A stretch of DNA of 64,000 nt from Thermorudis peleae (GTDB lineage Bacteria > Chloroflexota > Chloroflexia > Thermomicrobiales > Thermomicrobiaceae), in contig NZ_JQMP01000003.1 of the NCBI RefSeq assembly GCF_000744775.1, positions 1,178,001 to 1,242,000 of the forward strand. Direction: 5' to 3'. The position numbers and the translations under genes are program-made. The notes beneath the pieces were generated by a model, which saw nothing but the letters and a program-made list of their open reading frames with translations, did not search any database and was not told the origin of the DNA. Position 1 is the first letter of the stretch, and the number at the start of each line of letters is the position of its first letter. Of this stretch, positions 45,903-61,595 are shown one piece after another.

Positions 45903-46370
45903 CCTTGTGCCCTCCTTAGGTAAAGCGTATTGCAAAGCATAGAACGAGACAGGACGCTCATAGGAATGAAGCAACACTCTCGCGTCCACCGTCTCGCGTG
46001 TTACCTCTTGATGGTAGCACCCTGCATTGGTTGGGAAAAGGGCTGCGGCAGGACGAAGAGCTGCTTGAGCAATGCAACGCTAAAGTGTATGAACGCAAGA
46101 ACATCGTGACGCTGAGAAAATCGCTGGGACGCAGTACCGGTGATCGCGGTATTAAACAACGAAGGGGGCGCATGAATGCGCCCCCTTCGCCCGCTCCCCC
46201 TAACCGGAGCAGGTTACTCCCCTTCCCCGACGCGAGCGTTGCCTCACGTCCTGCTCCCACTATTTCATAACGAATGGGCTGGCGAAAGGTTACGCAGTGG
46301 GCTGAAGGCAACCCAAATCGTTATACTTGCCATGTTGTGATAGGCTACCCTACCCTGAGGTGGAGGAGCC
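45903..46370. other. Structured intergenic region upstream of miaB
   Basis: About 468 bases without a supported gene. It holds a perfect 14-bp-stem hairpin (46160-46189) and a second stem, GGAGCAGG (46206-46213) with CCTGCTCC (46250-46257). A TATACT at 46322-46327 could be the miaB -10 box. No known riboswitch class could be assigned. Confidence 0.5.
46160..46189. terminator. Perfect GC-rich hairpin, terminator-like
   Basis: CGAAGGGGGCGCAT (46160-46173) and ATGCGCCCCCTTCG (46176-46189) are exact complements with a 2-base centre. On the minus strand it is followed by TTGTTTAAT, a weak T-tract; on the plus strand by a C-rich stretch. If it is a terminator, it would end a minus-strand RNA from within the intergenic region. 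Confidence 0.5.
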
Positions 46371-47759
46371 ATGACGAGGTCTGTGTTCCCGACATCCTTG
46401 CCGGTTGAACGTCCTGTGGATGGAGTCAAACGCTTTCATATCTGGACCATCGGCTGCCAAATGAACGAAGCCGAGTCTGCCAAAGCTGCGGCGCTGTTAC
46501 GGCAGGCAGGATACGTCAGTGCGCTCCGTGAAGAAGATGCCGACATCGTTATTGTCAATACGTGTGTTGTTCGGCAGCAGGCTGAGGAGAAAGCCGCAGG
46601 ACATATTGGCGCACTTGCTCGCTTAAAGCAGCGAAACCCCAATGTACGAATTGCCGTAACCGGTTGTATGGTCACCGGTCAGGAAGAGAAGCTTTCAGCA
46701 CGATTCCCGCATGTCGATCTCTTTTATGGACCGTCGGAATTTGAACGACTTGTTGAAATTGCCCCTGAGCTGCGTGATGTCGATTTCGATCTTGCTGAGC
46801 TGCCACATTACTATGATGAGGGGACAAGTGACCCCGAAGTTACCGCGTTTGTGCCGATTATCTATGGCTGTAACTTTGTCTGCTCGTACTGCATCGTACC
46901 ATATCGACGTGGGCGAGAGCGAAGCCGGCCAATGGCTGATATCGTGGCCGAGGTTGAGCGTCTAGCAGCCCGTGGTGTTCGCGAAATTACGTTGTTAGGG
47001 CAGACTGTTAATGCCTACGGCCACGACCTACCAGGCCAGCCGGATCTGGCTGACCTCTTAGCTGCGGTGCATGAGGTTGATGGCATTGAGCGTATCCGTT
47101 TCCTTACATCGCATCCCAAGTACTTCTCGGACAAGCTCATCGCAGCAATTCGTGATTTGCCGAAAGTCTGTGAACATGTTAACTTGCCGGTTCAATCTGG
47201 CGATAATGAAGTCCTTCGACGCATGCGGCGCAACTACACGGTCGAGTACTATCGCGAGCGTATTGCCAAGATTCGCGAAATGATTCCCGACGTGACACTC
47301 TCTACTGATATCATCGTTGGTTTTCCAGGAGAGACAGAGGAACAATTCCAACATACGTACCAGTTACTTGAAGATATCCGTTTTGACAAAGTACATGTGG
47401 CAATGTATTCGCCACGGCCGGGCACACTTTCCGCGCGCTGGGAAGACGATGTGCCACGTGCTGAAAAGCGGCGCCGTCATCAAGCGATTGAAAAGTTGCA
47501 AGAACAAATCTGCCGCGAGCGGAATGAGCGCTATCGAGGCCAAGTTGTCGAGGTCCTGGTGGACGGTATGGCTCGCGGTCGATGGCGTGGGCGAACGCGG
47601 GGCAACACGTTGGTCTTCTTTGAGTCGCCTGACTCATGGAAAGGCAAGCTCGTCCACGTTCGCATCACGCAGGTAAGTCCATGGTACCTCCTTGGAGAGC
47701 TGATAGAACCACAAACATCGCATGGAGGGGTACAGCAGTATGTTGCAGTTTCCCGGTGA
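46371..47759 (+). CDS. miaB: tRNA-2-methylthio-N6-isopentenyladenosine synthase MiaB
   Basis: A 462-residue radical-SAM methylthiotransferase that adds a methylthio group to i6A37 in tRNA. The N-terminal UPF0004 domain has its three Fe-S cysteines in TIGCQMNEAES, VNTCVVRQQAEEK and VTGCMVTGQEE. The radical-SAM cluster motif is GCNFVCSYCIVPYRRGRE. The C-terminal TRAM domain has RYRGQVVEVLVDG and WKGKLVHVRITQV. The length is normal. GGAGGAG precedes the ATG. It overlaps the TPR gene by 20 bp. Confidence 0.96.
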   Translation: MTRSVFPTSLPVERPVDGVKRFHIWTIGCQMNEAESAKAAALLRQAGYVSALREEDADIVIVNTCVVRQQAEEKAAGHIGALARLKQRNPNVRIAVTGCMVTGQEEKLSARFPHVDLFYGPSEFERLVEIAPELRDVDFDLAELPHYYDEGTSDPEVTAFVPIIYGCNFVCSYCIVPYRRGRERSRPMADIVAEVERLAARGVREITLLGQTVNAYGHDLPGQPDLADLLAAVHEVDGIERIRFLTSHPKYFSDKLIAAIRDLPKVCEHVNLPVQSGDNEVLRRMRRNYTVEYYRERIAKIREMIPDVTLSTDIIVGFPGETEEQFQHTYQLLEDIRFDKVHVAMYSPRPGTLSARWEDDVPRAEKRRRHQAIEKLQEQICRERNERYRGQVVEVLVDGMARGRWRGRTRGNTLVFFESPDSWKGKLVHVRITQVSPWYLLGELIEPQTSHGGVQQYVAVSR

Positions 47760-48618
47760 AGGTGCACAAGAGCGTCGATTAATCCGTCGCTTAACCAACG
47801 CAGCCAAGCAGTACGCGTTGCATGGCGAGTGGGAACGAGCAGTAGAGGCAAATCGAAAGCTACTCGAATATGCTCCGCGCGATGTTGCTGCATATAACCG
47901 ATTAGGTCGAGCCCTCGCTGCCCTTGGTCAGCTGGATGCTGCACGCGAAGCCTATGAAAAGGCGTTAGAGATTGATCCTGGAAACACCATTGCGCAACGT
48001 AATTTGAATCGCTTGCAGTGGTGGAATGGCGATAATGGTGGCAGCGTTGCGCTGCTTCAGCAGCCGGCACGTGCTGATGTTTTTATCGAAGAAGTAGGTC
48101 GGACGTATGTGACCGATGTGCTTGAACCAGCCGATTCAGCAATCTTGGCACAGCTTTTTCCAGGCCAGGAGTTGCTCGTTGAGGTTCGGGATAATGCTGT
48201 CGTTGTCTGTGATCCAGTCGGTCGTTGTCTTGGCCGACTCGATGCGGAGCTTACCCGTCGTCTTCGTGACCTGATCCAGCAAGGCAATCAGTACCGCGCG
48301 TACGTGGTCGCATTGAATGGCAGCACAGTGCGTGTGATCTTGCGGGAGGTCTTCCGGACAGCGAGCTTGCTCGAGCGCCCTTCCTTCCCGCCGCAGCCCA
48401 AAATTGCAGCGCCTCGGCCGTATTTGCCCGAAAGTGGCCTCCAAGAGGAAGAAGAACTTGGGGAAGAAGAGGTTGCCGAGTTGCTTGAGGAGACTGAGGA
48501 AGAGGAAGAAGAAGCGGTCTTGTCCGAGGAGGTTACTCCCGAAGAAGAATTACTTGTCGAGGATGAGCCACTTCTTTCTGACCTCGATTTCACCGACGAC
48601 TCTCCTTTAGATAGCTAG
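47740..48618 (+). CDS. Tetratricopeptide-repeat protein with acidic tail
   Basis: A 292-residue protein. Two TPR units are at about residues 14-82, including EWERAVEANRKLLEYAPRDVA and LDAAREAYEKALEIDP. A middle domain (about 105-215) includes TYVTDVLEPADSAIL and PVGRCLGRLDAELTRRL and has a beta-rich look similar to an RNA- or protein-binding fold, not assigned. The last 65 residues or so are strongly acidic with runs of Glu. The ATG at 47740 has GGAGGGG upstream; the start lies within miaB, so the two are coupled. The role is unknown, probably as a scaffold. Confidence 0.8.
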   Translation: MLQFPGEGAQERRLIRRLTNAAKQYALHGEWERAVEANRKLLEYAPRDVAAYNRLGRALAALGQLDAAREAYEKALEIDPGNTIAQRNLNRLQWWNGDNGGSVALLQQPARADVFIEEVGRTYVTDVLEPADSAILAQLFPGQELLVEVRDNAVVVCDPVGRCLGRLDAELTRRLRDLIQQGNQYRAYVVALNGSTVRVILREVFRTASLLERPSFPPQPKIAAPRPYLPESGLQEEEELGEEEVAELLEETEEEEEEAVLSEEVTPEEELLVEDEPLLSDLDFTDDSPLDS

Positions 48619-48639
48619 CTTGCTTCCGAACGCATAGTA

Positions 48640-48676
48640 CCCCTGGGGCAACACACCCCAGGGGCTTCGTTTCTCT
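48640..48676. terminator. Intrinsic terminator between convergent genes
   Basis: CCCCTGGGG (48640-48648) pairs with CCCCAGGGG (48656-48664) across a 7-base loop and is followed by CTTCGTTTCTC. It serves the miaB-TPR transcript and perhaps the opposite strand. Confidence 0.75.
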
Positions 48677-48687
48677 CAATTCGGCTG

Positions 48688-48963
48688 CTAGCGGAGGACA
48701 AACGTAAGGGCGATTAAGACAGCAATAATCAAGGCAGTAAGGATCAGCAGGCGCCGCAAGTCCGAGCGAATCATGGAGAACTCTTCGTCAACGCGTCCCC
48801 ACGGCGAGACAATACCAGTCGGGTGATTTATGCTGGCAGCCTGCGTGTTTGATACGCGTGTCGGCGCTGCTGTCCGAGGCATTGGCTGTGGTGTTACTGT
48901 GTTCGGGGCTGGCCTTCTGGTTTGTGCTGGTCGCTGTCCTGATCGCGGTCGGCGTTGTGCCAT
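48688..48963 (-). CDS. Small tail-anchored membrane protein
   Basis: A 91-residue protein. The first 55 residues are Pro/Arg/Thr-rich and probably disordered. A segment VDEEFSMIRSDLRRL precedes one C-terminal transmembrane helix, LILTALIIAVLIALTFVL, leaving almost nothing outside. The ATG at 48963 has GAGGGAG upstream. I do not recognise a family. It may be co-transcribed with nothing else, as the next minus-strand gene ends 65 bp upstream. Confidence 0.6.
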   Translation of the reverse strand: MAQRRPRSGQRPAQTRRPAPNTVTPQPMPRTAAPTRVSNTQAASINHPTGIVSPWGRVDEEFSMIRSDLRRLLILTALIIAVLIALTFVLR

Positions 48964-49028
48964 GCTGCTCCCTCATGAACCGATCACACATGTACACCAT
49001 GGCAGTATACCAGAGGATGCTGTACTGT

Positions 49029-49835
49029 CTAGGCTGACGTAATTTCAACAAGATCGCCACGACGGAGGCCAAGTTCGTGTGCAGCGTTTCCGTTGCGAAT
49101 TGCAATCTCAAGGCCGCCGTGGCTGCCGAAAAGTGCAAGTGGTGACCCCGGTTTGACATCGCCATATGTCGTGTGAATACCATGAATTACCACACTCCCA
49201 CACCGAACAAGCGCAGTTTCATAGGCAAACGGAATATCCTCGGGCCGGATCAGCGTTCGACAATTGCCGAAGTGGTCGATTGACAACAGTGGGCCTTGCA
49301 CACGTTCCGGTGTCCGTACCACAGGCGTAAGCGAGAGCTGGACAATCTCGCTTGGTGCGATTGGTGTGCCAAGGAGTGCAAGGTCAGTACCCGATGCAAG
49401 GTGAGCTGCTACAGGTGCGAAGATATCACGGCCATGAAATGTCCGTGAGACAGGATGACGGAAAAATTGGGGGCGATCGAGTGCCACGACCATGTGGGGC
49501 GGTGTCTCACGAAAAACCAGGGTTCCTACCCCATTGTCTGGCAGCACGAAGTACTGCTCGCCGGCAAGACACGCGAGAGCACGCCGTGCCGTCCCGACTC
49601 CTGGATCGACCACTGCGACATGCACTGTTCCTGGTGGGAAGACACGCCACGCTGTCGCAAGCTGAAAGCTTCCTTCGAGAATATCTTGTGGTGGAACAGC
49701 GTGGGTCAGGTCAACAAGGCGAACCTGTGGGGCAAGACTGAGGATCACGGCTTTCATCTGTCCCACATAGGTGTCGCGCTCGCCGAAATCTGTCAGGAGT
49801 GTAATCAAGCCACTGGGTCGAGGAAAGCGGTTCAT
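49029..49835 (-). CDS. S-adenosyl-L-methionine hydrolase (adenosine-forming), DUF62 family
   Basis: A 268-residue protein of the SAM hydroxide adenosyltransferase family, relatives of the fluorinase and chlorinase, which split SAM into adenosine and methionine using water. Family motifs are LLTDFGERDTYVGQMKAVI (N-terminal domain), VVDPGVGTARR, LPDNGVG, FHGRDIFAPVAAHLASG and DHFGNC in the C-terminal barrel. The halide-specific loop cannot be judged by eye. The ATG at 49835 is chosen because similarity starts there; the longer frame overlaps mobA. It follows mobA by 13 bp on the same strand. Confidence 0.9.
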   Translation of the reverse strand: MNRFPRPSGLITLLTDFGERDTYVGQMKAVILSLAPQVRLVDLTHAVPPQDILEGSFQLATAWRVFPPGTVHVAVVDPGVGTARRALACLAGEQYFVLPDNGVGTLVFRETPPHMVVALDRPQFFRHPVSRTFHGRDIFAPVAAHLASGTDLALLGTPIAPSEIVQLSLTPVVRTPERVQGPLLSIDHFGNCRTLIRPEDIPFAYETALVRCGSVVIHGIHTTYGDVKPGSPLALFGSHGGLEIAIRNGNAAHELGLRRGDLVEITSA

Positions 49836-49848
49836 TGCGAGTCCAATC

Positions 49849-50487
49849 TCATCCCTGAAGGCGTTCTGCAGCATCGAAGGCCTGCACATGCGCAAGCGCC
49901 CAGGCATAAGCCTCTGGTGTGTTCGCATTAAAGAAGCTGAGTAACTCGGGATCAAATTGTCGAACAGTCGACTCAGGAATGCGCCGGACATGAACTCGTG
50001 GGAAGAAGCCGATAACCTGGTATCGCCCCTGGGCGAGTTGCTGTTCAATTGCAGGAATGCAGGCTCGGCTGTAGATCGCGTGGAGCGTTTGCAGCGTTTC
50101 TTCACCACCCTGAGCGCTTGTGCCACGAAGCGCAGGAATGAGGACGTCATAATCTCGAGGAAGGCTGATCATATAGCGGAGCAATTGCACGTTAACAAAG
50201 GGGAGATCACACGCTAAAACGAGGCAGTAGGGATGTTGCGCAGTTGTAAGCGCGGTGTAGATCCCGCCTAATGGTCCAGCTTGTGGGACAAGATCGTCGA
50301 CTCGACGGGCGGCAAATTGCTCATATCCTGGACGTGCTGGGGCAATGAGCAGGAGATCATCTGAAAGCGGAGCAACCCGCCGGAGGACACGTCCAAGCAG
50401 TGGCTCACCCCCAACATCAAGCAGAGCTTTATCTTTCCCCATACGACGACTCTGGCCTCCGGACAGAATCGCAATCGAAAGATCCAC
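49849..50487 (-). CDS. mobA: Molybdenum cofactor guanylyltransferase MobA
   Basis: A 212-residue nucleotidyltransferase that attaches GMP to molybdopterin. The N-terminal signature is AILSGGQSRRMGKDKALLDV, followed by DLVPQAGPLGGIYTAL and ACDLPFVN, the GTP- and metal-binding motifs. The length is typical. No moa or moe genes are adjacent, although a ThiF/MoeB-like gene occurs near 2 kb. The DUF62 gene follows on the same strand. Confidence 0.93.
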   Translation of the reverse strand: MDLSIAILSGGQSRRMGKDKALLDVGGEPLLGRVLRRVAPLSDDLLLIAPARPGYEQFAARRVDDLVPQAGPLGGIYTALTTAQHPYCLVLACDLPFVNVQLLRYMISLPRDYDVLIPALRGTSAQGGEETLQTLHAIYSRACIPAIEQQLAQGRYQVIGFFPRVHVRRIPESTVRQFDPELLSFFNANTPEAYAWALAHVQAFDAAERLQG

Positions 50488-50669
50488 GATCGCACTACCC
50501 CTCTTGTGCTCTTTTCTCCGTCCGAAGTATACTGGTCTCGTACTTCCAGCAGTGTAGCGAGCAAAGTGGTGATTCGAGCAGAGCGGCGTATTGAACGGAG
50601 GCCGGTGGACTCTTCAGCGAGGTCTTGTGGCAGTGGGTAGGGTTGCGTCGCTAAAGGAGGGCAGCACCC

Positions 50670-50945
50670 ATGAATTCGGCACTCATCGGGAAGATCGAGA
50701 AAGCTCGCCGATACGCTGAAGAACCAGAGCGTGCTCAGCTCCAATCACTTCATGTTCGTTTCCGTGGCGACCACGACGTCTATGACGTGCGGTTCGAAGA
50801 TCAGCACTGGAGTTGCACGTGTCATTCGTTCTCTGCTCTTGGGCTTGGTACGTGCAGCCATATCATGGCGCTTGAACGGCTGCTTGCTCCAATGATTCCA
50901 GCAGAAGTGCCAGCAAGCGGGACGCAACCCCTTGGTTCCTCTTAA
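50670..50945 (+). CDS. SWIM zinc-finger protein
   Basis: A 91-residue protein that is almost only a SWIM finger. The zinc ligands CxCx(n)CxH are in WSCTCHSFSALGLGTCSHIMALE (Cys pair near residue 50, Cys-His near 63); the motif is described here in parts because of its length. SWIM domains bind DNA or proteins and usually occur within larger helicases or Sws1-type repair proteins. AAAGGAGG lies upstream of the ATG. It is transcribed between mobA (divergent) and the c-di-AMP-receptor-like gene (convergent), without an obvious partner. Confidence 0.8.
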   Translation: MNSALIGKIEKARRYAEEPERAQLQSLHVRFRGDHDVYDVRFEDQHWSCTCHSFSALGLGTCSHIMALERLLAPMIPAEVPASGTQPLGSS

Positions 50946-50969
50946 AAAATCTGGCTATTAAAAGTCTGG

Positions 50970-51311
50970 CTATCGTGATACTCCGCTAAGGACTTGCTCG
51001 TAGCGTTCGACTGGGAGGATGAAGAGCGAGCCTCCTCCGACGACACGCGGTAATGGAACTGTTTGCCATTCGGATTCCTCTTCGAGACGATCAGGTGCTG
51101 GCGGTGCTGGTTGCTCCTGCCAGTATGCGTGCAAGAGTTGAAGCGCTTGACGAAGTTCATCTTCTGAAACCCCGAGCAGCAGTGCGGCGCTTCCAGGTTG
51201 CAGAAGTTTGCCGGTAGCTGAAATTTGCGTCACCTTCAAACCTGCTTCAACGAGCGTAGCCACAATCAGTGGGGCATCCTGCTCATGCACGATCGCAATA
51301 ATGAGGTGCAT
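50970..51311 (-). CDS. Cyclic-di-AMP receptor-like protein (DarA/PstA, PF06153)
   Basis: A 113-residue PII-like protein. The N-terminus MHLIIAIVHEQDAPLIVATL, followed by KVTQISATGKLLQPGSAALLLGV, matches the DarA/PstA fold, in which trimers bind cyclic-di-AMP between subunits. The second half includes GGGSLFILPVERYEQV, the usual C-terminal strand. The ATG at 51311 has AGGAG upstream; the longer open frame lacks similarity. No c-di-AMP cyclase is in the window, so signalling by this nucleotide is inferred from the family. Confidence 0.82.
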   Translation of the reverse strand: MHLIIAIVHEQDAPLIVATLVEAGLKVTQISATGKLLQPGSAALLLGVSEDELRQALQLLHAYWQEQPAPPAPDRLEEESEWQTVPLPRVVGGGSLFILPVERYEQVLSGVSR

Positions 51312-51603
51312 CCCGACTCCTGACTCTCTGACTATGACTCCTCTTGACAGAACCTTTCGCCACGATAAAGTGTCGCATACAACGCAGAGCTTCTGCTGAC
51401 CCGGCGCGGTTTTGTTTTGGCTTATGGTGCCGCCATTGGCACCAGGAATGAGTCCACACCCTGGCTTCTGTGGTGCAGGGCTCATCGACATGGTTGGTGG
51501 GCGTTTGTTACCCTGAACAAAAGGGTGAGAGCGTGCCCGTATCTCGCGTGTAAGCATATCGGGACAAGCACGATACAGCATGTTACGGGAACAGGGGGAA
51601 CAT
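51312..51603. other. Intergenic region before the ThDP enzyme gene
   Basis: A promoter-like pair TTGACA (51344-51349) and TAAAGT (51366-51371), 16 bases apart, would give a leader of about 225 bases for the plus-strand gene. A small hairpin ACCCT/AGGGT lies near 51511-51527. No supported gene is present. Confidence 0.4.
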
Positions 51604-53208
51604 GTGCGAGTTCGTGGTGGGCAAGCGGTTGTCCATACACTCGAGCGACTTGGCGTTGACGTCGTCTTTGGTATTCCCGGCGTCCATACGCTTGAAATTT
51701 ATGATGCCTTATATGATTCACCGATCCGCCATGTCCTTGCTCGCCATGAGCAGGGCGTTGGGTTCATGGCTGATGGCTATGCCCGCGTTTCAGGACGCCC
51801 TGGCGTAGCGATTGTTATTACTGGCCCGGGGGTCACAAACGTCGCTACGCCGTTTGCCGAAGCCTATGCTGATTCATCACCAGTCCTGGTGATTGCGTCC
51901 AATGTCGAGCAGGCGTGGCAGGGGCAGATGCTTGGCCATCTCCACGACCTTCGCGATCAGCTCGGCTTAATGCGAAGCATTACCCCTTGGGCGAAGCGTG
52001 CGCATACTGTTCAAGAAATTCCATGCCTTCTCCATGAGGCGTTGACCTTCATGCTTGGAGGACGCTCTCGTCCTGCCTATCTGGAAGTTCCCCTCGACGT
52101 CCTGAGTGCTGAAGCGGACATCGACGTTGCTTCACTCACGCCAATAACGCGACCCGTCATGGCGCCATCACCAGAGATCGTTGCTGTAGCGGCCAAGACA
52201 ATCGCCACGGCACGTCGCGTTGTGATCTACGCTGGTGGTGGGGCAGTTGCAAGTCAAGCTGGAGCTGAGCTGGCAGCATTGGCAGAGTGGTTGCACGCTC
52301 CAGTACTAACCAGCACGCAGGGTAAGGGCAGTATTCCAGATGACCATCCGTATAGTGTGGGAAACCTCTGGGAACCGGGCAATCCGGTTGAAAATCTTTT
52401 GCGTGAAGCAGACCTTGTCTTGATTTTTGGCTCCAAGCTTGGCGCAATGGAGACGAATTACCAACAGATGCCACTCCCACCCATCCGCATTCGCGTTGAT
52501 GCTGATCCGCAGGAGATATTACGCAACTATCCACCAACGATCCCCATCGTTGCCGATTGCCGGCTCACAGCACGTGCCTTACTCGAGGCTCTGCGACATG
52601 AGCGTCTTCAATGCGCAGGCTGGTCGCCGGATGAGGTTGCTGCAGTTCGGCAGAAGGCTCTGGCACGAGCGTGGGGGCATGAGCAGGCAGCCTACATACG
52701 TGCAATTCGCTCAGCTCTTCCGCGCGACGGCATCCTTGTGGTTGACATGACGATGATGGGCTACGTCGCGAATCGCTTCTATCCCGTCTATACACCGCGA
52801 AGTTACCTCTTCCCGACTGGCTACGGAACGCTCGGCTTTGCGCTGCCAGCAGCAATTGGTGCGAAAATTGCCCGACCTGATGTGCCAGTTGTGGCTTTGG
52901 TTGGTGATGGCGGATTCCAATACACTATGGAAGAACTCGGAGCAGCGGTACAACTTGGGATCGGTTTGCCGATTATCCTCTGCAACGATTCCGCATATAC
53001 CGCTGTCAAGGACGAGCAGGCGCGACGTTTTGATCGCCGTTTTATTGCGGTTGATCTCGTCAATCCCGATTTTCAGCGTCTTGCTGCCGCATATGGGATT
53101 CCATCGGTGCGCGTAGCCTCACCGGAGCAACTGCAAGACGCGTTGAGTGTTGCGCTTGAGCGCTCTGTGCCGACGGTGATTGAGCTTCCGGTTTCTTTTC
53201 CGGTGTAG
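51604..53208 (+). CDS. Thiamine-diphosphate-dependent enzyme, acetolactate synthase-like
   Basis: A 534-residue ThDP enzyme of the IlvB/benzoylformate decarboxylase superfamily. The N-terminal PYR domain has FGIPGVHTLEIYDAL and the catalytic Glu in LARHEQGVGFMADGYARVSG. The central domain begins near residue 185. The C-terminal PP domain has VALVGDGGFQYTMEELGAAV and IILCNDSAY, the metal/ThDP-binding motif. True acetolactate synthase is not shown: no regulatory ilvN gene is adjacent, and related families decarboxylate other 2-oxo acids. The GTG at 51604 has GGGGGA upstream; ATG 51580 is an alternative. Confidence 0.85.
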   Translation: MRVRGGQAVVHTLERLGVDVVFGIPGVHTLEIYDALYDSPIRHVLARHEQGVGFMADGYARVSGRPGVAIVITGPGVTNVATPFAEAYADSSPVLVIASNVEQAWQGQMLGHLHDLRDQLGLMRSITPWAKRAHTVQEIPCLLHEALTFMLGGRSRPAYLEVPLDVLSAEADIDVASLTPITRPVMAPSPEIVAVAAKTIATARRVVIYAGGGAVASQAGAELAALAEWLHAPVLTSTQGKGSIPDDHPYSVGNLWEPGNPVENLLREADLVLIFGSKLGAMETNYQQMPLPPIRIRVDADPQEILRNYPPTIPIVADCRLTARALLEALRHERLQCAGWSPDEVAAVRQKALARAWGHEQAAYIRAIRSALPRDGILVVDMTMMGYVANRFYPVYTPRSYLFPTGYGTLGFALPAAIGAKIARPDVPVVALVGDGGFQYTMEELGAAVQLGIGLPIILCNDSAYTAVKDEQARRFDRRFIAVDLVNPDFQRLAAAYGIPSVRVASPEQLQDALSVALERSVPTVIELPVSFPV

Positions 53209-53210
53209 CA

Positions 53211-55073
53211 ATGCGGTGTCAGGTTACCGGTCACGATCTGCAACTCTGGCGTTATCGGTGGTATGGCCGTCTCCTCGTTTCAGACGGGGTACGGAATTAT
53301 GCGCTGCCCATGACGGGAACGATTGCCCAGTGGTTTCAGCCTGGAGAAATCGTTGAATTCTCCCGTCTATCTGCAGACAAGGAGGAACCACTCGGGTTTG
53401 ATAACTATATGCTCGCACGCGTCAGCGATGATGGGCTCATACCAGTTTGGCCAGTATGGCAGGATGAGCAACAACTCGTTCGGACGCTACCACTTTCTGA
53501 CCAGCCGCTTTATACCTATCGCCTTCGTTTCCGCGAAGCGACGCGTGAATCGGACTTTCTCGCCATTGTCGACTTTGAACAGCACCACTACGCGGCTGAA
53601 GAAGCTGAAATCGCGCGATGGTACTGTCCCGACGATGGGCGCGTCGTTGTTGCAAATGCGCAGCCATTTTGCCCAGTATGTCATCGTCCAATGCGCTTTG
53701 CAGACCTCGTTGATGCCACACGAGCAAGTCGGTTTCTGCTTGCTGAGTTGCTTGACCGCGAGCCGTATGAGCCATCGGTGATTGGCTATGTCCGCGTTGA
53801 TCCTCCATTGCCGATCATGCATCGACGACTTCCTGATGGGACGATTGTCCGCGATATCCGTCGGCAGATCTTCCCTCCCGATTGGATTTCGCCGACGTAT
53901 TGGCCAGTTGTTGTGTACCGGCGTCTTCGTAAGGAACATCCCGATCGGCCAGCCCGTGAACTCTGGGCGATGGCAGAGGCCGAGGCGCTGGCTCAGTGCA
54001 ACACCCGTGGAGCACGGATTGCTCGCGTTGTCGTGCATCCCGACTATCGTGGTGATGGGTTAGGCGTTCGCCTTGTCCAGGCTGCCCTTCGCTGGATTCA
54101 CGATCGGCGCATTCCGGAAATGCGCCAAGCCAAGGATATCGTTGAAACTGTTGCCCTCATGGCTCGGTATAATCCATTTTTTGAACGGGTTGGATTCCGC
54201 TACCTCTGGGATACGGCGTCTGGCCGGCCTGTGCTCTACTATGCGCTGACGCCCGACGCGCAAACCCGCATCGACCATTTTCTTGCCCATGACGAAGTTG
54301 GGCAGCAGCATCGCGGACAGCTTTATCGCGCTCGGCTTGACCCGGTAGAACCATTGGCCGGCTCGATCGTTATCGATCATGTCACCAAGTTCTACCGCAC
54401 AACGTTAAGCCTTCGTGCCTTACCCATGTCGTTGCAGCAACTGCTCCGTGCTTTTGGTGTGGCCAGACGCACAATGACGAAAACCGTTTTCCGCCGCCTC
54501 AGTCTTGAAATTCCTCCACGCGCTATCGTTGCCCTTGTTGGTGCTTCCGGAAGTGGGAAAACAACACTCCTCCGCATGATTGCTCAAGCAGCTGGTGAAC
54601 CGTTTGGATCGGTTGCTCAGCCGGATACTGGACGCGTACTGGTGCCCGAGAACGTTCAGGTGGCCGTCTTCTTCCCTGGTGAGCGCGAACCACTGTTTGA
54701 AGGCGTAACACTTCTTGAAGCAGTATGGCGCCTTACGAATGATGAAGTTGCTGCGCTCGAGTTGCTCAATGCGGTCGGACTCGGCGATGCTTTGCTCTTC
54801 CGAGCAACTCCGGGACAGCTTTCAACTGGACAGCGGGAACGAGCACGGCTTGCGTTGCTCTTTGCGAGCCGTGCGAACCTGATCCTTATCGACGAATTTG
54901 CTGCTCATCTCGATCCATCACTCGCTCGCCGTGTGGCACGCAAGTTGAGTGAACTCGCTCGCCGGCTTGCAGTGACGGTCATCGTAGCGACTCATCGTCC
55001 TGAAGTTGTTGAGGCGCTGGCCCCTGATCATACATTGGTGGTGGGGTATGGCGGTGTTCGACCTTTAACGTGA
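53211..55073 (+). CDS. ABC-class ATPase fused to a GNAT acetyltransferase (COG2401-like)
   Basis: A 620-residue soluble fusion protein. The N-terminal 190 residues form an unassigned domain with a zinc-ribbon-like RWYCPDDG...FCPVCHRPM. A GNAT domain (about 225-345) has ARIARVVVHPDYRGDGLGVRL, the acetyl-CoA-binding motif, and ARYNPFFERVGF. The ABC ATPase (about 375-620) has Walker A GASGSGKTTLLRM (about residue 443), signature LSTGQRERARL and Walker B LILIDEFAAHLDP. There are no membrane helices. This architecture is best known from archaea and its role is unknown. The gene follows the ThDP gene by 2 bp and overlaps the convergent ASCH gene by 46 bp. Confidence 0.88.
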   Translation: MRCQVTGHDLQLWRYRWYGRLLVSDGVRNYALPMTGTIAQWFQPGEIVEFSRLSADKEEPLGFDNYMLARVSDDGLIPVWPVWQDEQQLVRTLPLSDQPLYTYRLRFREATRESDFLAIVDFEQHHYAAEEAEIARWYCPDDGRVVVANAQPFCPVCHRPMRFADLVDATRASRFLLAELLDREPYEPSVIGYVRVDPPLPIMHRRLPDGTIVRDIRRQIFPPDWISPTYWPVVVYRRLRKEHPDRPARELWAMAEAEALAQCNTRGARIARVVVHPDYRGDGLGVRLVQAALRWIHDRRIPEMRQAKDIVETVALMARYNPFFERVGFRYLWDTASGRPVLYYALTPDAQTRIDHFLAHDEVGQQHRGQLYRARLDPVEPLAGSIVIDHVTKFYRTTLSLRALPMSLQQLLRAFGVARRTMTKTVFRRLSLEIPPRAIVALVGASGSGKTTLLRMIAQAAGEPFGSVAQPDTGRVLVPENVQVAVFFPGEREPLFEGVTLLEAVWRLTNDEVAALELLNAVGLGDALLFRATPGQLSTGQRERARLALLFASRANLILIDEFAAHLDPSLARRVARKLSELARRLAVTVIVATHRPEVVEALAPDHTLVVGYGGVRPLT

Positions 55074-55438
55074 CGCCGCCGGACCCAAATGCGGGGCCCA
55101 GTTGGCCGTTCGAGCGCATACGGTGTTGGAAAGGGTTCTGGATCCTCAAGCACCCAAGCGTACAGTGGTTGCCCCTGAGCATACGCTTCGAGAAAGGTGG
55201 CGGGGGCCAGATGCTTCTCAATATGATCAAGCAATTCCTCGATGGTAAATGGCCCTAAGACATCAGTCAGTCGAACGGTGCCGATGAGTCCCCGGCTGCT
55301 GGCAATTCCGATGCGCCCACGAATCCGCGTTGGATAGCGCCGAATTTCCCAAAGTTTTCGCCCCTCCACGATGTGCGTTGCCCAGGGCTCACGGACAGTC
55401 AGAATATGCTCCGGTAGTTCGGGCTCGTCTTGTGACAT
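55028..55438 (-). CDS. ASCH domain protein
   Basis: A 136-residue protein whose core is an ASCH (PUA-like) domain, with HILTVREPWATHIVEGRKLWEIRRYPTRIRGRIGIASSRG in the typical position (residues about 12-50, quoted in parts: VREPWATHIVEGRKLWEIR). PUA-like domains bind RNA; some ASCH proteins are RNA-binding nucleases or amidohydrolases for modified cytidine. The ATG at 55438 has GGAGGGAG upstream. Its 3' end overlaps the GNAT-ABC fusion gene on the opposite strand. Confidence 0.82.
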   Translation of the reverse strand: MSQDEPELPEHILTVREPWATHIVEGRKLWEIRRYPTRIRGRIGIASSRGLIGTVRLTDVLGPFTIEELLDHIEKHLAPATFLEAYAQGQPLYAWVLEDPEPFPTPYALERPTGPRIWVRRRHVKGRTPPYPTTNV

Positions 55439-55471
55439 CGTGTGTCTCCCTCCACATGTCAGTATAGAGAC

Positions 55472-55500
55472 TTGACGGCGAGATGAATACCGCGTATTCT
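55472..55500 (+). promoter_or_regulatory. Sigma-70-type promoter of the cimA leader
   Basis: TTGACG (55472-55477) and TATTCT (55495-55500) are separated by 17 bases. Transcription would start near 55507, about 230 bases before the cimA ATG and about 23 bases before the leader ORF. Confidence 0.75.
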
Positions 55501-55529
55501 CTGAAGAAGAAGGGAAAGAGGCGCTGGAT

Positions 55530-55640
55530 ATGATGTCGCGCTCCAGCACGCAGGCTTTGCCAATCCGGATTCTCGCGATTATTCGGCCCCGCCTGGGCGG
55601 GGCTAGCCGGTGCTGGGGAGTGCTGTCATGTCGGCGCTAG
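55530..55640 (+). CDS. Candidate isoleucine-rich leader peptide for cimA attenuation
   Basis: A 36-residue open frame beginning MMSRSSTQALPIRILAIIRP. Four Ile codons (ATC at 55563, ATT at 55569, 55578 and 55581) fall within seven codons, along with a Leu codon (CTC at 55572). GGGAAAGAG lies upstream of the start. It sits between a promoter and cimA, an isoleucine-pathway gene. Starvation for Ile-tRNA would stall a ribosome just before the GCCCCGCC/GGCGGGGC hairpin (55586-55603). This is the standard design of a leader-peptide attenuator; the regulation is inferred. Confidence 0.6.
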   Translation: MMSRSSTQALPIRILAIIRPRLGGASRCWGVLSCRR

Positions 55641-55672
55641 GCCGATAACCAAAAGCGAACGCGAGGATGTCG

Positions 55673-55698
55673 GCGGCCTCCCCATGTGGGGAGGCCGC
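55673..55698 (+). terminator. Attenuator-like hairpin upstream of cimA
   Basis: GCGGCCTCCCC (55673-55683) and GGGGAGGCCGC (55688-55698) form a perfect 11-bp stem with loop ATGT. TGGGGAG (55614-55620) could instead pair with CTCCCCA (55678-55684), and AGGCCG (55639-55644) with CGGCCT (55674-55679), giving alternative structures. No T-tract follows, so the mechanism is open. Confidence 0.55.
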
Positions 55699-55736
55699 TC
55701 AGTATTGTGCAGTGGTCTTGCAATAGGGAGGGTACT

Positions 55737-57374
55737 ATGGCGGCAGAACCAATGACGTCCGGGCCAACAGTTGCAATCTATGACACGACGCTTCGTGATG
55801 GGACGCAAGGTTCTGGCATTTCCTTGACCACTGACGATAAGTTGAAGATCGCACGGGCGCTCGATCGCCTTGGCGTTGCCTATATCGAGGGCGGCTGGCC
55901 TGGTTCTAACCCGAAGGATCTTGCATTTTTTGAGCGGGCAGCTCATGAACACTGGGAGCATGCACGCATCGTAGCTTTTGGCAGTACACGAAGGGCGCAC
56001 GTCGCTCCAGAGGATGATGCTAATCTGCAATTGCTGCTTTCTGCCCAGACGCCGACCGTCACCATTGTTGGAAAAGCGTCAGCATTCCAGGTCGTACGCG
56101 TATTGAACACGACGCTCGACGAAAACTTAGCAATGGTACGCGAATCTGTCGCGTACCTGAAGGCTGCCGGGAAGGAAGTGTTCTTTGATGCAGAGCATTT
56201 TTTTGACGGCTACCGCGACGATCCCAACTATGCTCTTGCTGTCTTACGGGCTGCATGTGAGGCTGGAGCTGATGCTGTCGTGCTCTGCGATACGAATGGT
56301 GGGACGCTGACCGAGCCATTAACTGAAGCAGTGCGACACGTTGTGCGAGAAATTCCCTGTGTTGTTGGCATTCATACGCATAATGACTGTGAATTGGCGG
56401 TTGCGAACAGTATTGCCGCTGTGCGAGCTGGGGCGCGACATGTTCAAGGAACGATCAATGGCCTTGGAGAGCGTGTTGGCAACGCGAATTTGTGCTCAGT
56501 GATCCCAATTCTTGAATATAAGATGGGGTATCGCTGCTTACCACCTGGAAAACTTGCGCTCTTGACAGAGACCTCTCGCTATGTAGCGGAAGTAGCGAAT
56601 GTCGCGCACGATCCAAAGCTCCCATTCGTCGGGGCACATGCCTTTACCCACAAAGCTGGCCTCCACGTGAATGCAATTGCGAAGGAGCCGCGTGCCTATG
56701 AACACATGCCCCCTGAGGCAGTCGGAAACACGCGCCATGTCTTAGTGTCTGAGCTCAGTGGACGGAGCAATATTGTTCTTAAAGCTCAGACATTTGGCAT
56801 CGATTTAAGCGACAAGCCAGAGATCGTACGACAGATCGTTGAGCAAATCAAAGAGTTGGAATTTCTCGGATTTTGGTTTGAAGATGCCGACGCGTCACTT
56901 GAACTGCTGATCCGGCGAGCATTGCCCGGCTATACTCCGCCCTTCACTGTGCTCGATTACACTGTGCTCACTGAATATCGTGAAGGTCGTGGGATGCTGG
57001 CGGAGGCGATGGTAAAGCTTCAAATTCATGATCAGGTTTTCCATACTGCTGCAGAAGGCAACGGGCCGGTGAATGCCCTTGACGCGGCGACGCGCAAAGC
57101 GTTGCAAGCTTTCTACCCGCACATTGCCGATGTGCGCCTTGAGGACTACAAAGTGCGGGTGCTTGACGACCATCACGGCACAGGGGCAAAAGTGCGAGTC
57201 TGGATCCGCTCCGGGGATAACTTCCGCAGCTGGAGCACTGTTGGGTGCTCTACCAATATCATCGAAGCATCATGGATGGCGCTTGCTGATAGCTTGACGT
57301 ACCCGTTAGTTACGCCGTTACCAACTGGAACACAGTCAATTACTCCGGCAGTGGAAGCTAAGGCGTCTCGTTAG
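55737..57374 (+). CDS. cimA: (R)-citramalate synthase
   Basis: A 545-residue member of the isopropylmalate synthase family that condenses pyruvate with acetyl-CoA to citramalate, opening the threonine-independent route to isoleucine. The catalytic barrel starts AIYDTTLRDGTQGSGISL, with the metal-binding HTHNDCELAVANS and AFTHKAGLHVNAI. The C-terminal regulatory LeuA-type domain (about 420-530) has DALDAATRKAL and GTGAKVRVWIRSGD, the site of feedback inhibition, probably by isoleucine. The ATG at 55737 has GGGAGG upstream. It is preceded by a possible Ile attenuator. Confidence 0.93.
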   Translation: MAAEPMTSGPTVAIYDTTLRDGTQGSGISLTTDDKLKIARALDRLGVAYIEGGWPGSNPKDLAFFERAAHEHWEHARIVAFGSTRRAHVAPEDDANLQLLLSAQTPTVTIVGKASAFQVVRVLNTTLDENLAMVRESVAYLKAAGKEVFFDAEHFFDGYRDDPNYALAVLRAACEAGADAVVLCDTNGGTLTEPLTEAVRHVVREIPCVVGIHTHNDCELAVANSIAAVRAGARHVQGTINGLGERVGNANLCSVIPILEYKMGYRCLPPGKLALLTETSRYVAEVANVAHDPKLPFVGAHAFTHKAGLHVNAIAKEPRAYEHMPPEAVGNTRHVLVSELSGRSNIVLKAQTFGIDLSDKPEIVRQIVEQIKELEFLGFWFEDADASLELLIRRALPGYTPPFTVLDYTVLTEYREGRGMLAEAMVKLQIHDQVFHTAAEGNGPVNALDAATRKALQAFYPHIADVRLEDYKVRVLDDHHGTGAKVRVWIRSGDNFRSWSTVGCSTNIIEASWMALADSLTYPLVTPLPTGTQSITPAVEAKASR

Positions 57375-58153
57375 CGGCGCCAGGCCCGGACGATGAGTTT
57401 ATCGTCACGAAAACCGAGGATAGACCCCTCCTCCACGTGCGCACCGAGGTATGCGAGCAGGGCTGGTTGGCTGAGAAACCATGCCTCCAGCTCTGCTCGC
57501 TGGTCGGACGTCATCCCCGAACGCTCAGTCCACTCCTTCCAGTTGTGCCAACGTTGTACTTCCATCACAACGTCGGGGACAAGTCCAACTGTGCGAAGCC
57601 CGTCGAGCCAAGCCCGGCGTGAAAGACTGTGTACATGGCTGGGATCTCGTTGTCGTTCAAGCTCGTCAAGGGCGTGAGCTAACGCAGGATCATCAGGACC
57701 AAGATTGTCAACGAGAATGAAACGCCCGCCAGGTTGCAGGACGCGTGCGACCTCAGCAAGAAAGTGATGTGGCGAGGGAAAGTGATGGGGAGCAATGCGA
57801 CAGGTGACGAGCGCCATTGAGGCGCTGCGAAGTGGAAGAGCAGTCGCATCTCCTGCAAGAAACAGACAGCTGCCTTCGCTGTCAGCCTCTCGTAGGGTCT
57901 CTCGAGCAACATGAAGCATCGATGGGGTAAGGTCGAGCGCAATGACGTGCGCTCCGTGTTGCGCTAACAGCTTGGCGGTATGCCCAGCGCCTGTAGCCAC
58001 GTCGAGAGCGCGTTCTCCGGGGCGCACTGCTGCAAGTCTGAGCAGGAGTTCAAGATCAATGCCCGTCGCAAAGGTTGGACTCGTCTGGTAAGCGCGGGCA
58101 ACACGCCCAAACTGCTGTTGCACTCGTATCCGGATCTCTGCGTCTGTGTTCAC
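57371..58153 (-). CDS. Class I SAM-dependent methyltransferase (UbiE-like)
   Basis: A 260-residue methyltransferase. SAM-binding motif I is ALDVATGAGHTAKLLA (about residue 48), followed by VIALDLTPSML and the later CRIAPHHFPSPHHFLAEVARVLQPGGRF segment (quoted in parts: VARVLQPGGRFILVDN). It is UbiE/COQ5-like in layout, but the acceptor is not evident. Its start is divergent from the MMPL gene and its stop overlaps that of cimA by 4 bp. Confidence 0.85.
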   Translation of the reverse strand: MNTDAEIRIRVQQQFGRVARAYQTSPTFATGIDLELLLRLAAVRPGERALDVATGAGHTAKLLAQHGAHVIALDLTPSMLHVARETLREADSEGSCLFLAGDATALPLRSASMALVTCRIAPHHFPSPHHFLAEVARVLQPGGRFILVDNLGPDDPALAHALDELERQRDPSHVHSLSRRAWLDGLRTVGLVPDVVMEVQRWHNWKEWTERSGMTSDQRAELEAWFLSQPALLAYLGAHVEEGSILGFRDDKLIVRAWRR

Positions 58154-58255
58154 TTGTGCCTTCCTCTCTCGCTAAATTCCTCGTTTTAGGCAGCGTTGGT
58201 GTTATACCTTTTGGGTGGGTGAATAGAGTTGGCGGGAGAATGGAGGGAGTGCTGC

Positions 58256-60463
58256 GTGTTTCGGTGGTTTGGGCGCTTGGCGTACCGGTTCCGCTGGCCG
58301 ATTGTCGTGCTCTGGTTCGCCGCTGCCCTTGCAACACTTCCTGTTTTGCCACGTGTTGCTGATGTCCTTTCGCCTGGCGGCTTCTCGAGTTCGCAGACTG
58401 AATCAGCCAAAGCACGTGCCTTGCTGCAGCAGAATATCCCAGGATACAGCCCAAGCACAATCCTGGTCCTGTTTAGTCATCCGACGTGGAAGCCGACTGA
58501 TCCGCAATTCATTGCCGAGGCACAACGAGCGTTAAGCCGCGTCACTTCACTGCCGGATGTTGCAGGAATCGATTGGTTTATGCAGAACCCCCGGCAAATT
58601 GCGCCGGATGGCTCTCTTGCGTATGCAGTGATACGGCTGAAGCGCGATCCTGAATCGGCTGAAGGGACCGCACGGGAGATCCAACAAGCACTTGTCCCAA
58701 CCAATCTCACGGTCCAGCTTTCGGGCAGTCCTGTACTCTACGCCGACTTTGCCCATGTGACAGAACATGACTTGCGGCGTGCTGAAATTGTTGCGTTTCC
58801 TTTCGCCTTGGTCGCTCTCGTTTTCGTCTTTGGCAGTGTGGTGACGGCGATCATCCCGCTGATTGTTGGCGCAATTAATGTAGCGCTTGTGCTTGGCTTT
58901 CTCTACCTGCTCACGCACGTCATGTCGCTTTCGGTGTTCTCCCTCAATGTTGCGAGTATGCTCGGGCTTGGATTAGCCATCGATTATTCGCTCTTCCTCG
59001 TCAGCCGATTCCGCGAAGAACTTCTTCATGGTTCTGTCGTACAGGCTGTTGAGAAAACGGTTGCTACGGCCGGCCGGGCTGTCTTCTTTTCTGGCTTGAC
59101 AGTACTCATTGGGTTGAGTGGGCTGAGCTTTTTCGAATTTCTCTTCATGCGCTCCGTTGGTATTGCTGGCATGTTGGTCGTATTGACTGCTGTGCTCTCT
59201 GCGATGACGTTCTTACCGGCTATGCTTGCGATCGTCGGCCCGCGTGTCAATGCGTTAACGCTTCGCTCTCGGCCAGACCAGACAGGAGGCTTTTGGCATC
59301 AGACTGCAACGCGTGTTATGCGTCATCCCTGGTTCGTGGTGATTCCAGTAACGGCGCTTCTCATCGGCCTGGCATTGCCGTTCCGCAACGTACAGTTAAG
59401 CTCTCCGGATGCGACGATTCTACCGCGTAGTACCCAGTCGCGGCAGGCGTTCGATCGCTTGAGCCAGGCCTTTGGCCAAGGGGCCATCTCACCGATCGTG
59501 ATTGCAGTTCAAACCGACCAACTAGTAAACGACCCGCAGACCCTTGCCTCCCTCTATGCCTACACGCGGCAAATTGCTGCCGACACGCGTGTTGAACGTG
59601 TAACCAGCATTGTCACTGTCGATCCACGGATTACGCTTCCACAATACCAGCAACTCTACCATGACCCCGCGCACATCCCTGATCCAGTGCTCCAGGCCGC
59701 GTACCAGCAGCTTGCGGGCCAGAACGTAACGGCCATCTATGTCTATTTCAACGCCCTACCGGCCAGTCCAGAGGCTCGATCATTACTCCATGATTTGCGT
59801 CACATTCAGCCGCCAGCTGGTCTCCATGTGCTCATGGATGGTTCAACCGCTGAGATCGTTGATAATGTTCAGCGGATGTACCAGAAGTTTCCGTACGCTG
59901 CAGCAACGGTCATCCTGGCAACGTATGTCGTGCTCTTCGTCTTGCTGCGCTCAGCGCTGTTACCACTCAAAGCGGTTATCTTGAATCTCCTGAGCTTGAC
60001 GGCCAGCTATGGTGCTTTAGTCTATATCTTTCAGGAAGGCCACTTTCATCGATTGCTTCACTTTGACCCTCTCGGATTCACTGAATCGTCGCTGCCAATC
60101 ATCCTCTTTTGTCTTCTCTTCGGTCTGAGTATGGACTACGAGGTCTTCCTCCTGAGTCGTATCCGCGAGGCGTGGGAGCAGACGGGCGATAATACGCGTG
60201 CAGTAGTTGAGGGATTAGAGCGGAGTGGTCGGATTATCACTGGCGCTGCATTAATTCTGGTCATTGTTGCAGGTGCCTTTATTACTGCTGATGTCGTGCT
60301 CATTAAGGCTCTTGGTCTGAGTGTTGCGTTGGCCGTTGCGCTTGATGCTACGCTGGTGCGTGTCTTGCTCGTGCCGGCAACCATGCGCTTACTCGGGGAC
60401 TGGAACTGGTGGATACCACGATTCGCACTTCGGCTTGTGCCGGTCCGGGGTATGGAGCACTAA
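58256..60463 (+). CDS. MMPL/RND family transporter
   Basis: A 735-residue inner-membrane protein with about twelve transmembrane helices arranged as two copies of one + five helices, each with a large extracytoplasmic loop after the first helix. The N-terminal copy has FGRLAYRFRWPIVVLWFAAA and LGLAIDYSLFLVSRFREEL; the C-terminal copy has FGLSMDYEVFLLSRIREAWE, both with the Asp-Tyr pair of the proton pathway. Such proteins export lipids or other hydrophobic molecules. The GTG at 58256 has GGAGGGAG upstream; the frame runs back to a TTG. A lipoprotein gene follows by 4 bp. Confidence 0.9.
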   Translation: MFRWFGRLAYRFRWPIVVLWFAAALATLPVLPRVADVLSPGGFSSSQTESAKARALLQQNIPGYSPSTILVLFSHPTWKPTDPQFIAEAQRALSRVTSLPDVAGIDWFMQNPRQIAPDGSLAYAVIRLKRDPESAEGTAREIQQALVPTNLTVQLSGSPVLYADFAHVTEHDLRRAEIVAFPFALVALVFVFGSVVTAIIPLIVGAINVALVLGFLYLLTHVMSLSVFSLNVASMLGLGLAIDYSLFLVSRFREELLHGSVVQAVEKTVATAGRAVFFSGLTVLIGLSGLSFFEFLFMRSVGIAGMLVVLTAVLSAMTFLPAMLAIVGPRVNALTLRSRPDQTGGFWHQTATRVMRHPWFVVIPVTALLIGLALPFRNVQLSSPDATILPRSTQSRQAFDRLSQAFGQGAISPIVIAVQTDQLVNDPQTLASLYAYTRQIAADTRVERVTSIVTVDPRITLPQYQQLYHDPAHIPDPVLQAAYQQLAGQNVTAIYVYFNALPASPEARSLLHDLRHIQPPAGLHVLMDGSTAEIVDNVQRMYQKFPYAAATVILATYVVLFVLLRSALLPLKAVILNLLSLTASYGALVYIFQEGHFHRLLHFDPLGFTESSLPIILFCLLFGLSMDYEVFLLSRIREAWEQTGDNTRAVVEGLERSGRIITGAALILVIVAGAFITADVVLIKALGLSVALAVALDATLVRVLLVPATMRLLGDWNWWIPRFALRLVPVRGMEH

Positions 60464-60467
60464 CATC

Positions 60468-61595
60468 ATGCGGCGGTGGGTACCGATTATCATTGCCTTG
60501 CTCCTGCTGGTACTTCCGGCCTGCGCGAGCCATGCTGGTTTGGCACAAAACATGCCGCAGTCTTCGGTGCCGACTCGTGAGCGCACCGCCCAGCTTTTCC
60601 TGACACCTCCACCTACGCCAGGGCCGATACAATTGCCGGACGACGATGCTCCACATGATGTTTTGACAGAATGGTGGTACACAACAGGCCATCTCCAAGC
60701 GACAGACGGTCGGCAATTTGGCTTTGAGTTTGTCATCTTTCAATCCGAACGCTTTGGCTATCCGGTTGTCTACGCTGCCCACTTTGCCATCACAGATCAC
60801 CAGGCGCAGCAGTTTTCGTGGGCTGAACGTGTCGATAGCCATCCACGGCCGCCGTCGACACTTCCAGTTGTTCTCTCTGTTGCCGATTGGTCTCTCCAGA
60901 TTACTGACAATCAGCTTGTCCTTGCAGCCCGCATGGACAACTACGCGCTGCAGCTTGCTTTGCGCTCAATAAAACCCCCGGTGCTTGAAAGTCCCGGCGG
61001 TTTCTTCACCTGGGCTCCAGCAACTGGGTCATACTACTACTCGCGCACCCGCCTAGCTGTTCAGGGAACGTTGCGTGCCGGCACAGCGGATTTCGCTGTC
61101 CAGGGCCAAGCGTGGATGGATCATCAGTGGGGTAACTTTATTGTTGGGAACCAAGGAGGATGGAACTGGTTCGCAATTCAACTCGATGATGGCCGAGATG
61201 TGATGCTTTGGCAAACACATGACACTGAGGGATCGGTAGTGTTGGCGAGTGGCACACTTGTTGATCCGGAAGGACATCCCCAGTATTTGTCTGCCGATGC
61301 ATTCAGAATCCAGTCAACAGGCTCGTGGCAGAGTCCCCATTCTGGAGCGCTCTATCCCTCGGGCTGGAAAATTGCTATTCCCGCTGCCAGGCTTCAACTG
61401 ACAGTCACGCCCGTACTCCAGGATCAAGAGTTGCAAACAGTTCGCTCAACTGGCGTCATGTACTGGGAGGGTGAAGTCGAGATCGCTGGTTTCGCCGATA
61501 ACAGGCCAGTAAATGGCAAGGGGTATGTCGAGCTAACTGGGTATGCCCGACCCACGATCCAGCCCACACCTTCCCTTCCTGTGCCGCATTCATGA
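60468..61595 (+). CDS. CrtC/AttH-like (lipocalin-like) lipoprotein
   Basis: A 375-residue secreted lipoprotein. The N-terminus is a lipoprotein signal with lipobox LPAC (Cys near residue 18). The body has DVLTEWWYTTGHLQATDG and FGFEFVIFQSE, the hallmark of the CrtC/AttH family, and WMDHQWGNF with later GWKIAIPAARLQLTVTPV. Family members with known activity hydrate carotenoids, but most homologues, including those next to exporters, have no known reaction. It starts 4 bp after the MMPL gene, so the two likely act together at the cell surface. Confidence 0.85.
   Translation: MRRWVPIIIALLLLVLPACASHAGLAQNMPQSSVPTRERTAQLFLTPPPTPGPIQLPDDDAPHDVLTEWWYTTGHLQATDGRQFGFEFVIFQSERFGYPVVYAAHFAITDHQAQQFSWAERVDSHPRPPSTLPVVLSVADWSLQITDNQLVLAARMDNYALQLALRSIKPPVLESPGGFFTWAPATGSYYYSRTRLAVQGTLRAGTADFAVQGQAWMDHQWGNFIVGNQGGWNWFAIQLDDGRDVMLWQTHDTEGSVVLASGTLVDPEGHPQYLSADAFRIQSTGSWQSPHSGALYPSGWKIAIPAARLQLTVTPVLQDQELQTVRSTGVMYWEGEVEIAGFADNRPVNGKGYVELTGYARPTIQPTPSLPVPHS

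Follow-up and report, generated by a model that had tools for sequence, protein, structure and literature searches.

The stretch of DNA analysed here (the window) comprises 64,000 nucleotides of the Thermorudis peleae genome, and the gene under study encodes a protein that combines GNAT acetyltransferase and ABC ATPase domains (Table 1). Its start codon lies 2 bp downstream of the stop codon of a gene for a ThDP enzyme (51580-53208), and its 3' end falls inside a gene for an ASCH protein. The overlap with the ASCH gene, which had been claimed in an earlier sequence-only reading, is real, with the qualification that the two genes lie on opposite strands and converge, sharing 46 bp of antisense sequence.

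Table 1. Features of the ABC-GNAT and ASCH genes, in window positions
Feature	Position	Strand	Basis
ABC-GNAT protein gene (COG2401 type), 620 aa	53211..55073	+	ORF, Pfam, AlphaFold2
OB-like N-terminal barrel, residues 1-82 (approx.)	53211..53456	+	AF2 and weak structural matches
GNAT acetyltransferase region, residues about 99-380	53505..54350	+	Pfam, AF2 secondary structure
H126-Y127, invariant; common to viral/phage relatives	53586..53591	+	alignment
Zinc-ribbon-like insert, residues 139-157 (CPDD...CPVC), degenerate	53625..53681	+	alignment
Acetyl-CoA motif R280-G-D-G-L-G285 (R-x-x-G-x-G)	54048..54065	+	alignment
ABC ATPase domain, residues 383-620	54357..55070	+	Pfam and structure comparison
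Walker A GASGSGKTT, residues 444-452	54540..54566	+	alignment
ABC signature LSTGQ, residues 537-541	54819..54833	+	alignment
Walker B and catalytic Glu LILIDEF, residues 557-563	54879..54899	+	alignment
ASCH partner gene, 136 aa from likely ATG 55438; longer ORF from 55549	55028..55438	-	Pfam PF04266 over cut-off
ASCH motif GxKxxExR (GRKLWEIR), intact	55340..55363	-	alignment
Tail-to-tail antisense overlap of ABC-GNAT and ASCH genes, 46 bp	55028..55073	.	ORF coordinates

Pfam searches placed Acetyltransf_7/_1 at residues 264-330 and ABC_tran at residues 428-563 (E 5.7e-17), both above cut-off. The AlphaFold2 model of the whole protein, calculated with 55 sequences, was a single compact soluble chain (pLDDT 92.8, pTM 0.88), in agreement with the earlier claim that there were no membrane helices. 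As in COG2401, a GNAT domain with the R-x-x-G-x-G motif precedes the ABC domain within one chain, and archaeal homologues aligned to the window protein over their full length at 45-50% identity. The protein is a genuine soluble ABC-GNAT fusion of the COG2401 type.

Conservation was assessed in an alignment of 55 nonredundant sequences, consisting of the window protein and 54 homologues with 45-62% identity over the whole chain. R280, G283, and G285 of the GNAT CoA motif, E123, Q124, H126, and Y127, the LSTGQ signature, and D561-E562 were all invariant. The Walker A, signature, and Walker B motifs described by the sequence-only reading as sharing one chain with the GNAT domain were intact, and the acetyl-CoA motif, whose possible degeneracy it had singled out for checking, was preserved across the homologues. 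The motif residues of both domains were invariant or near-invariant with the exception of the H-loop His, which is present in the window protein and replaced by Asn in many Thermoproteota. The canonical Q-loop position was occupied instead by an invariant P-x-E-x-E-P. Among solved structures, the ABC domain aligned best with transporter ATPases and also resembled ABC-F translation factors; its best PADLOC match was Mad3 of the MADS defence system (E 1.4e-29).

Because structure searches with the full-length model were swamped by the ABC domains (the top Foldseek match, through these domains, was the methyl-coenzyme M reductase activation complex protein 8s7v), residues 1-106 were modelled separately. 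This structure prediction, which had been suggested as a check, produced a separate beta-barrel (pLDDT 96.4, AF2) whose top structural matches were OB folds, including Trbp111, MetRS-C, RPA, SSB, and Mop, all of them weak (Z 5-7; Foldseek E 0.04 or worse). From the model, the N-terminal domain looks like an OB fold and is best described as OB-like. The CxxC motif had been assigned to this domain, which proved incorrect: C154-C157 belong to an insert within the GNAT region. The cysteine motif reads CxxC...CPxC in most homologues, is lost in some of the DPANN type, and reads CPDD...CPVC in the window protein, where three cysteines are left. Because of this degeneration and loss, the zinc-ribbon-like insert is structural at most.

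The ThDP gene had been correctly positioned 2 bp upstream, but the link is not conserved, since only two relatives have an orthologue in front of ABC-GNAT. In other family members that position is taken by a different ThDP enzyme (26-34% identity), and no ThDP gene was found beside ABC-GNAT at the loci of other phyla. With its neighbourhood not conserved, the enzyme was ruled out as a functional partner. It scored barely above the cut-off for the NCBIfam 5-guanidino-2-oxopentanoate decarboxylase model (501.8 versus 500). Locus comparison revealed no conserved neighbours across phyla apart from ASCH, and no translation, permease, restriction/DNA-modification, or defence genes conserved beside cellular ABC-GNAT genes. 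Genes resembling PheT close to three Bipolaricaulota-type loci and TruA close to two Archaeoglobi loci, both identified by eye, were local occurrences. GC-rich stacked hairpins at 55560-55720 (z -3.5) lie at the start of the gene at 55686-57374, by eye a citramalate/isopropylmalate-synthase-like enzyme; Rfam gave no match to them or elsewhere in the interval searched (46000-62000).

The ASCH protein scored above the PF04266 gathering score and carries the GxKxxExR motif, both characteristic of the ASCH superfamily. It belongs to the same family as TTHA0113 of Thermus thermophilus (PDB 2dp9, 1wk2; E 7e-46), which is labelled uncharacterised in the PDB entry, and a PDB search also related this family to the ASCH domain of ASC-1. 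Among 400 Chloroflexota genomes, the ASCH family was present in exactly the six that carry ABC-GNAT (6/6), and among 21 genomes of the Thermomicrobiaceae in exactly the seven carriers (7/7). In the archaeal phylum of the Archaeoglobaceae (197 genomes), it was found in 11 of the 12 carriers and in none of the non-carriers; the twelfth carrier (G798), in which the ABC-GNAT match is in two pieces, is without the ASCH family and without reverse gyrase. The conservation of the ASCH neighbour, proposed earlier as a check, was thus borne out by co-occurrence in three genome samples.

A scan of genome contigs found 176 relatives of the ABC-GNAT protein, and among the best 80 the ASCH domain was fused to the ABC-GNAT C terminus at 16 loci (and also in G148) and was adjacent but unfused at 17, in three orientations. 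The genes converge in the Thermomicrobiaceae, Thermoflexus, and part of the Bipolaricaulota and diverge in Archaeoglobi; in one Thermoprotei genome and in DPANN-type genomes, ASCH precedes ABC-GNAT and reads in the same direction. Two Chloroflexota genomes (G264, G331) have both genes 73-79 kb apart, and both are present but unlinked in genomes of the Thermococcus type, in a single Archaeoglobaceae genome, and in a single Asgard genome. The linkage state has changed at least 6 times on the tree. Retention of the pairing through such repeated rearrangement is strong evidence for a joint function, and the ABC-GNAT and ASCH proteins probably work as a pair. The pairing is near-obligate in the three genome samples and in most lineages tested, the exception being the Desulfurococcales/Thermoproteales, where most genomes with the ABC-GNAT gene are without this ASCH family. 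At two Wolframiiraptor loci (L135:1179-1613, L137:5439-5924), a short gene weakly matching DUF3850 lies just upstream of ABC-GNAT and is perhaps a replacement for ASCH.

Judged by their names, nearly all organisms contributing the best 80 of the 176 relatives come from hot environments, among them Thermococcus, Archaeoglobaceae, Desulfurococcales, Thermoflexus, and Bipolaricaulota. The tree separated archaea cleanly from bacteria; the description of this architecture as mainly archaeal fits, with the amendment that there is a solid bacterial clade as well. One homologue (L057, G018:C151:1-14000) was broken into several reading-frame pieces, suggesting a pseudogene or an assembly error. In the Thermoproteota, a strong ABC-GNAT match was found in 10 of 200 genomes, and reverse gyrase was present in all 10 compared with 119/200 overall (p 0.005); in the Archaeoglobaceae phylum, the corresponding figures were 11/12 and 34/197 (p 9e-9). 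Both p values ignore relatedness, and the association is confounded by phylogeny. Most carriers are thermophiles, and because the gene is so patchily distributed (10/200 Thermoproteota, 7/21 in the family), ABC-GNAT is not a core tRNA enzyme.

Six Thermoproteota genomes encode a shorter protein (about 490 aa) in which the ABC domain comes before GNAT and which has the HY and M-A-R/K-Y-N-P-F-F (YNPF) motifs in common with the cellular form. Three of these genes (L167, L170, L171) are located in proviruses with portal, head protease, capsid, and ParB genes. A single viral scan with this ABC-then-GNAT family identified 361 relatives. Of the best 80 (L175-L254), 41 had the gene for the terminase large subunit (TerL) close by on their own strand, and 35 had it directly upstream. 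The cellular domain architecture was not found in viral contigs. PHROGs matches of the viral family were only to families named ABC transporter or unknown. In SSU5-like phages, ABC and GNAT are two genes that follow two ParB genes, and the linear record begins with the terminase. In Salmonella phage SSU5 (L142:9818-13238), the order is ParB, ParB, ABC, a small ORF, GNAT, and another small gene, this cluster ending the linear record that has terminase at its start. The window gene is not of the viral type, as it does not show the ABC-then-GNAT order in a late-gene cluster. Iyer and colleagues predicted acyl modification of a DNA base for GNAT coupled with an ABC ATPase, as quoted in PMC7824862; together with the TerL and ParB neighbours, this favours DNA as the substrate of the viral forms.

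For the cellular protein, we consider it rather likely that it acts together with ASCH as an ATP-gated nucleic-acid acyltransferase. In other soluble ABC ATPases, ATP drives the closing and opening of a dimer. By the mechanism we propose, the GNAT domain would bind acetyl-CoA; the nucleic acid would be held by the OB-like barrel, the zinc-ribbon-like insert, and ASCH, whether fused or encoded separately; an ABC dimer would close and open with ATP, presenting or unstacking the target; and an amino group, most likely the exocyclic amine of a base, would be acetylated. A role for ASCH in binding is consistent with the general ability of PUA/ASCH domains to bind nucleic acid (PMC7641849). The likelier cellular substrate would be a structured RNA (tRNA or rRNA), with a role in heat adaptation. 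Three points lead us to prefer RNA here, namely the thermophile bias, the similarity in architecture to TmcA, and the lack of DNA-modification or restriction partners, but we propose only tentatively that the module acetylates RNA in cells. The patchiness of the gene, the lack of conserved translation neighbours, the weak OB scores, and the ASCH-less Desulfurococcales/Thermoproteales all count against this proposal. It is a long shot that an acetylated base in the tRNA or rRNA of thermophiles, for example the N6-acetyladenosine of Methanopyrus kandleri tRNA, whose biosynthetic pathway is not known (PMC6313347), is made by this module; it would then be the missing enzyme, with a soluble ABC ATPase replacing the helicase, and the viral cousins would carry out this reaction on viral DNA during packaging.

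Owing to the viral context, DNA is a serious rival substrate. The cellular module might acylate a base of chromosomal DNA for protection or marking, with ASCH as the reader or targeting subunit, in keeping with the position of the viral relatives beside TerL, ParB, and capsid genes, with the published prediction of DNA-base acylation (PMC7824862), and with the suggestion that ASCH domains read modified DNA bases in some systems (PMC7641849). We nevertheless regard chromosomal DNA as an unlikely target, as restriction and other DNA-modification genes are not conserved around the cellular gene, the thermophile bias would be left unexplained, and the cellular architecture differs in its OB-like barrel, zinc ribbon, ASCH, and domain order. 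The acceptor could also be a ribosomal, chromatin, or RNA-bound protein, to which the ABC, OB, and ASCH parts would only deliver the enzyme by way of a ribonucleoprotein or DNA complex. Among characterised GNATs of similar sequence, most modify proteins or small molecules, the only GNAT that the A1 profile matched in the PDB, and that weakly, is a ribosomal-protein-alanine acetyltransferase (5isv, E 0.08), and the likeness of the ABC domain to ABC-F factors as well as transporter ATPases would suit such a role. That the enzyme is near-obligately paired with, and in places fused to, a PUA-type domain points to nucleic acid instead, making protein acetylation improbable in our estimate.

That the locus encodes a toxin-antitoxin or defence module, with GNAT as an aminoacyl-tRNA toxin, ASCH as antitoxin or sensor, and an ABC domain that resembles a MADS defence protein, appears very unlikely. 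There is a precedent in the proposed GNAT-EVE/ASCH operons (PMC7641849), and the Mad3 similarity and patchy distribution are compatible with it; however, fusion of ASCH to the enzyme is frequent, the protein is very highly conserved in both archaea and bacteria with a clean two-domain tree, and no other defence genes are conserved nearby. An ordinary transporter ATPase to which a GNAT domain became fused by accident would account for the best structural alignments of the ABC domain, yet this explanation is scarcely credible: it is already contradicted by retention of the fusion in 54 homologues, and the Q-loop replaced by an invariant PxExEP, the lack of a conserved permease neighbour, and the soluble AF2 model argue in the same direction.

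The protein family is already known, and the phage ABC-GNAT pairing is already published as a prediction. In the open literature, we found no mention of COG2401 or MK0520, no paper containing both 'ABC-type ATPase' and 'acetyltransferase domain', and no report of the ASCH partnership or fusions with ABC-GNAT, an earlier mention of which is possible in Iyer 2013. The few publications that mention ASCH, GNAT, and ABC alike do not seem to deal with this pairing. The window gene is one more member of this known family, and its interest comes from the ASCH pairing. A near-obligate and sometimes fused partner provides a defined two-protein system that can be copurified and assayed, so that its function is directly testable. 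The cellular COG2401-type enzymes, which are conserved in heat-loving archaea and bacteria, are also tied to a large set of virus-encoded relatives beside a DNA-packaging gene. If nucleic-acid acetylation is correct, we know of no earlier enzyme of this kind for which an ABC ATPase has been shown to be the driving part.

Among known systems, COG2401/MK0520, an ABC-type ATPase with a predicted acetyltransferase domain, matches the window protein in having GNAT then ABC in a soluble chain; the core is alike, whereas the zinc ribbon is degenerate in the window copy. The same name is also carried by a phage relative. The viral ABC-GNAT proteins (phrog_293 and phrog_886; SSU5 genes 127 and 129; archaeal proviruses) have homologous ABC and GNAT domains with the HY and YNPF motifs in common but place ABC before GNAT or split them between two genes, without OB or zinc ribbon, and adjoin TerL/ParB rather than ASCH. 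The (PIN)-GNAT-EVE systems with ASCH operons likewise tie GNAT to PUA-type domains including ASCH (PMC7641849). The window protein has an ABC ATPase instead, and neither EVE nor PIN was among its best 25 Pfam matches. The ASCH partner has the fold and the motif Lys and Arg in common with E. coli YqfB, an ASCH-domain ac4C amidohydrolase with the catalytic triad Thr24, Lys21, and Glu74 (PMC6972931). A YqfB-like deacetylase role was rejected, since in the motif alignment the nucleophile Thr24 is replaced by an invariant Glu31 and the triad is incomplete. TmcA/NAT10 is absent from this genome, and the window protein is not its equivalent, scoring 14.1 bits against PF13718 (GNAT_acetyltr_2; cut-off 24.6). 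TmcA/NAT10 nonetheless resembles the window protein in joining an NTPase module, a GNAT domain, and nucleic-acid or RNA binding, and differs in using an RNA helicase in place of the ABC ATPase and a GNAT domain of another family.
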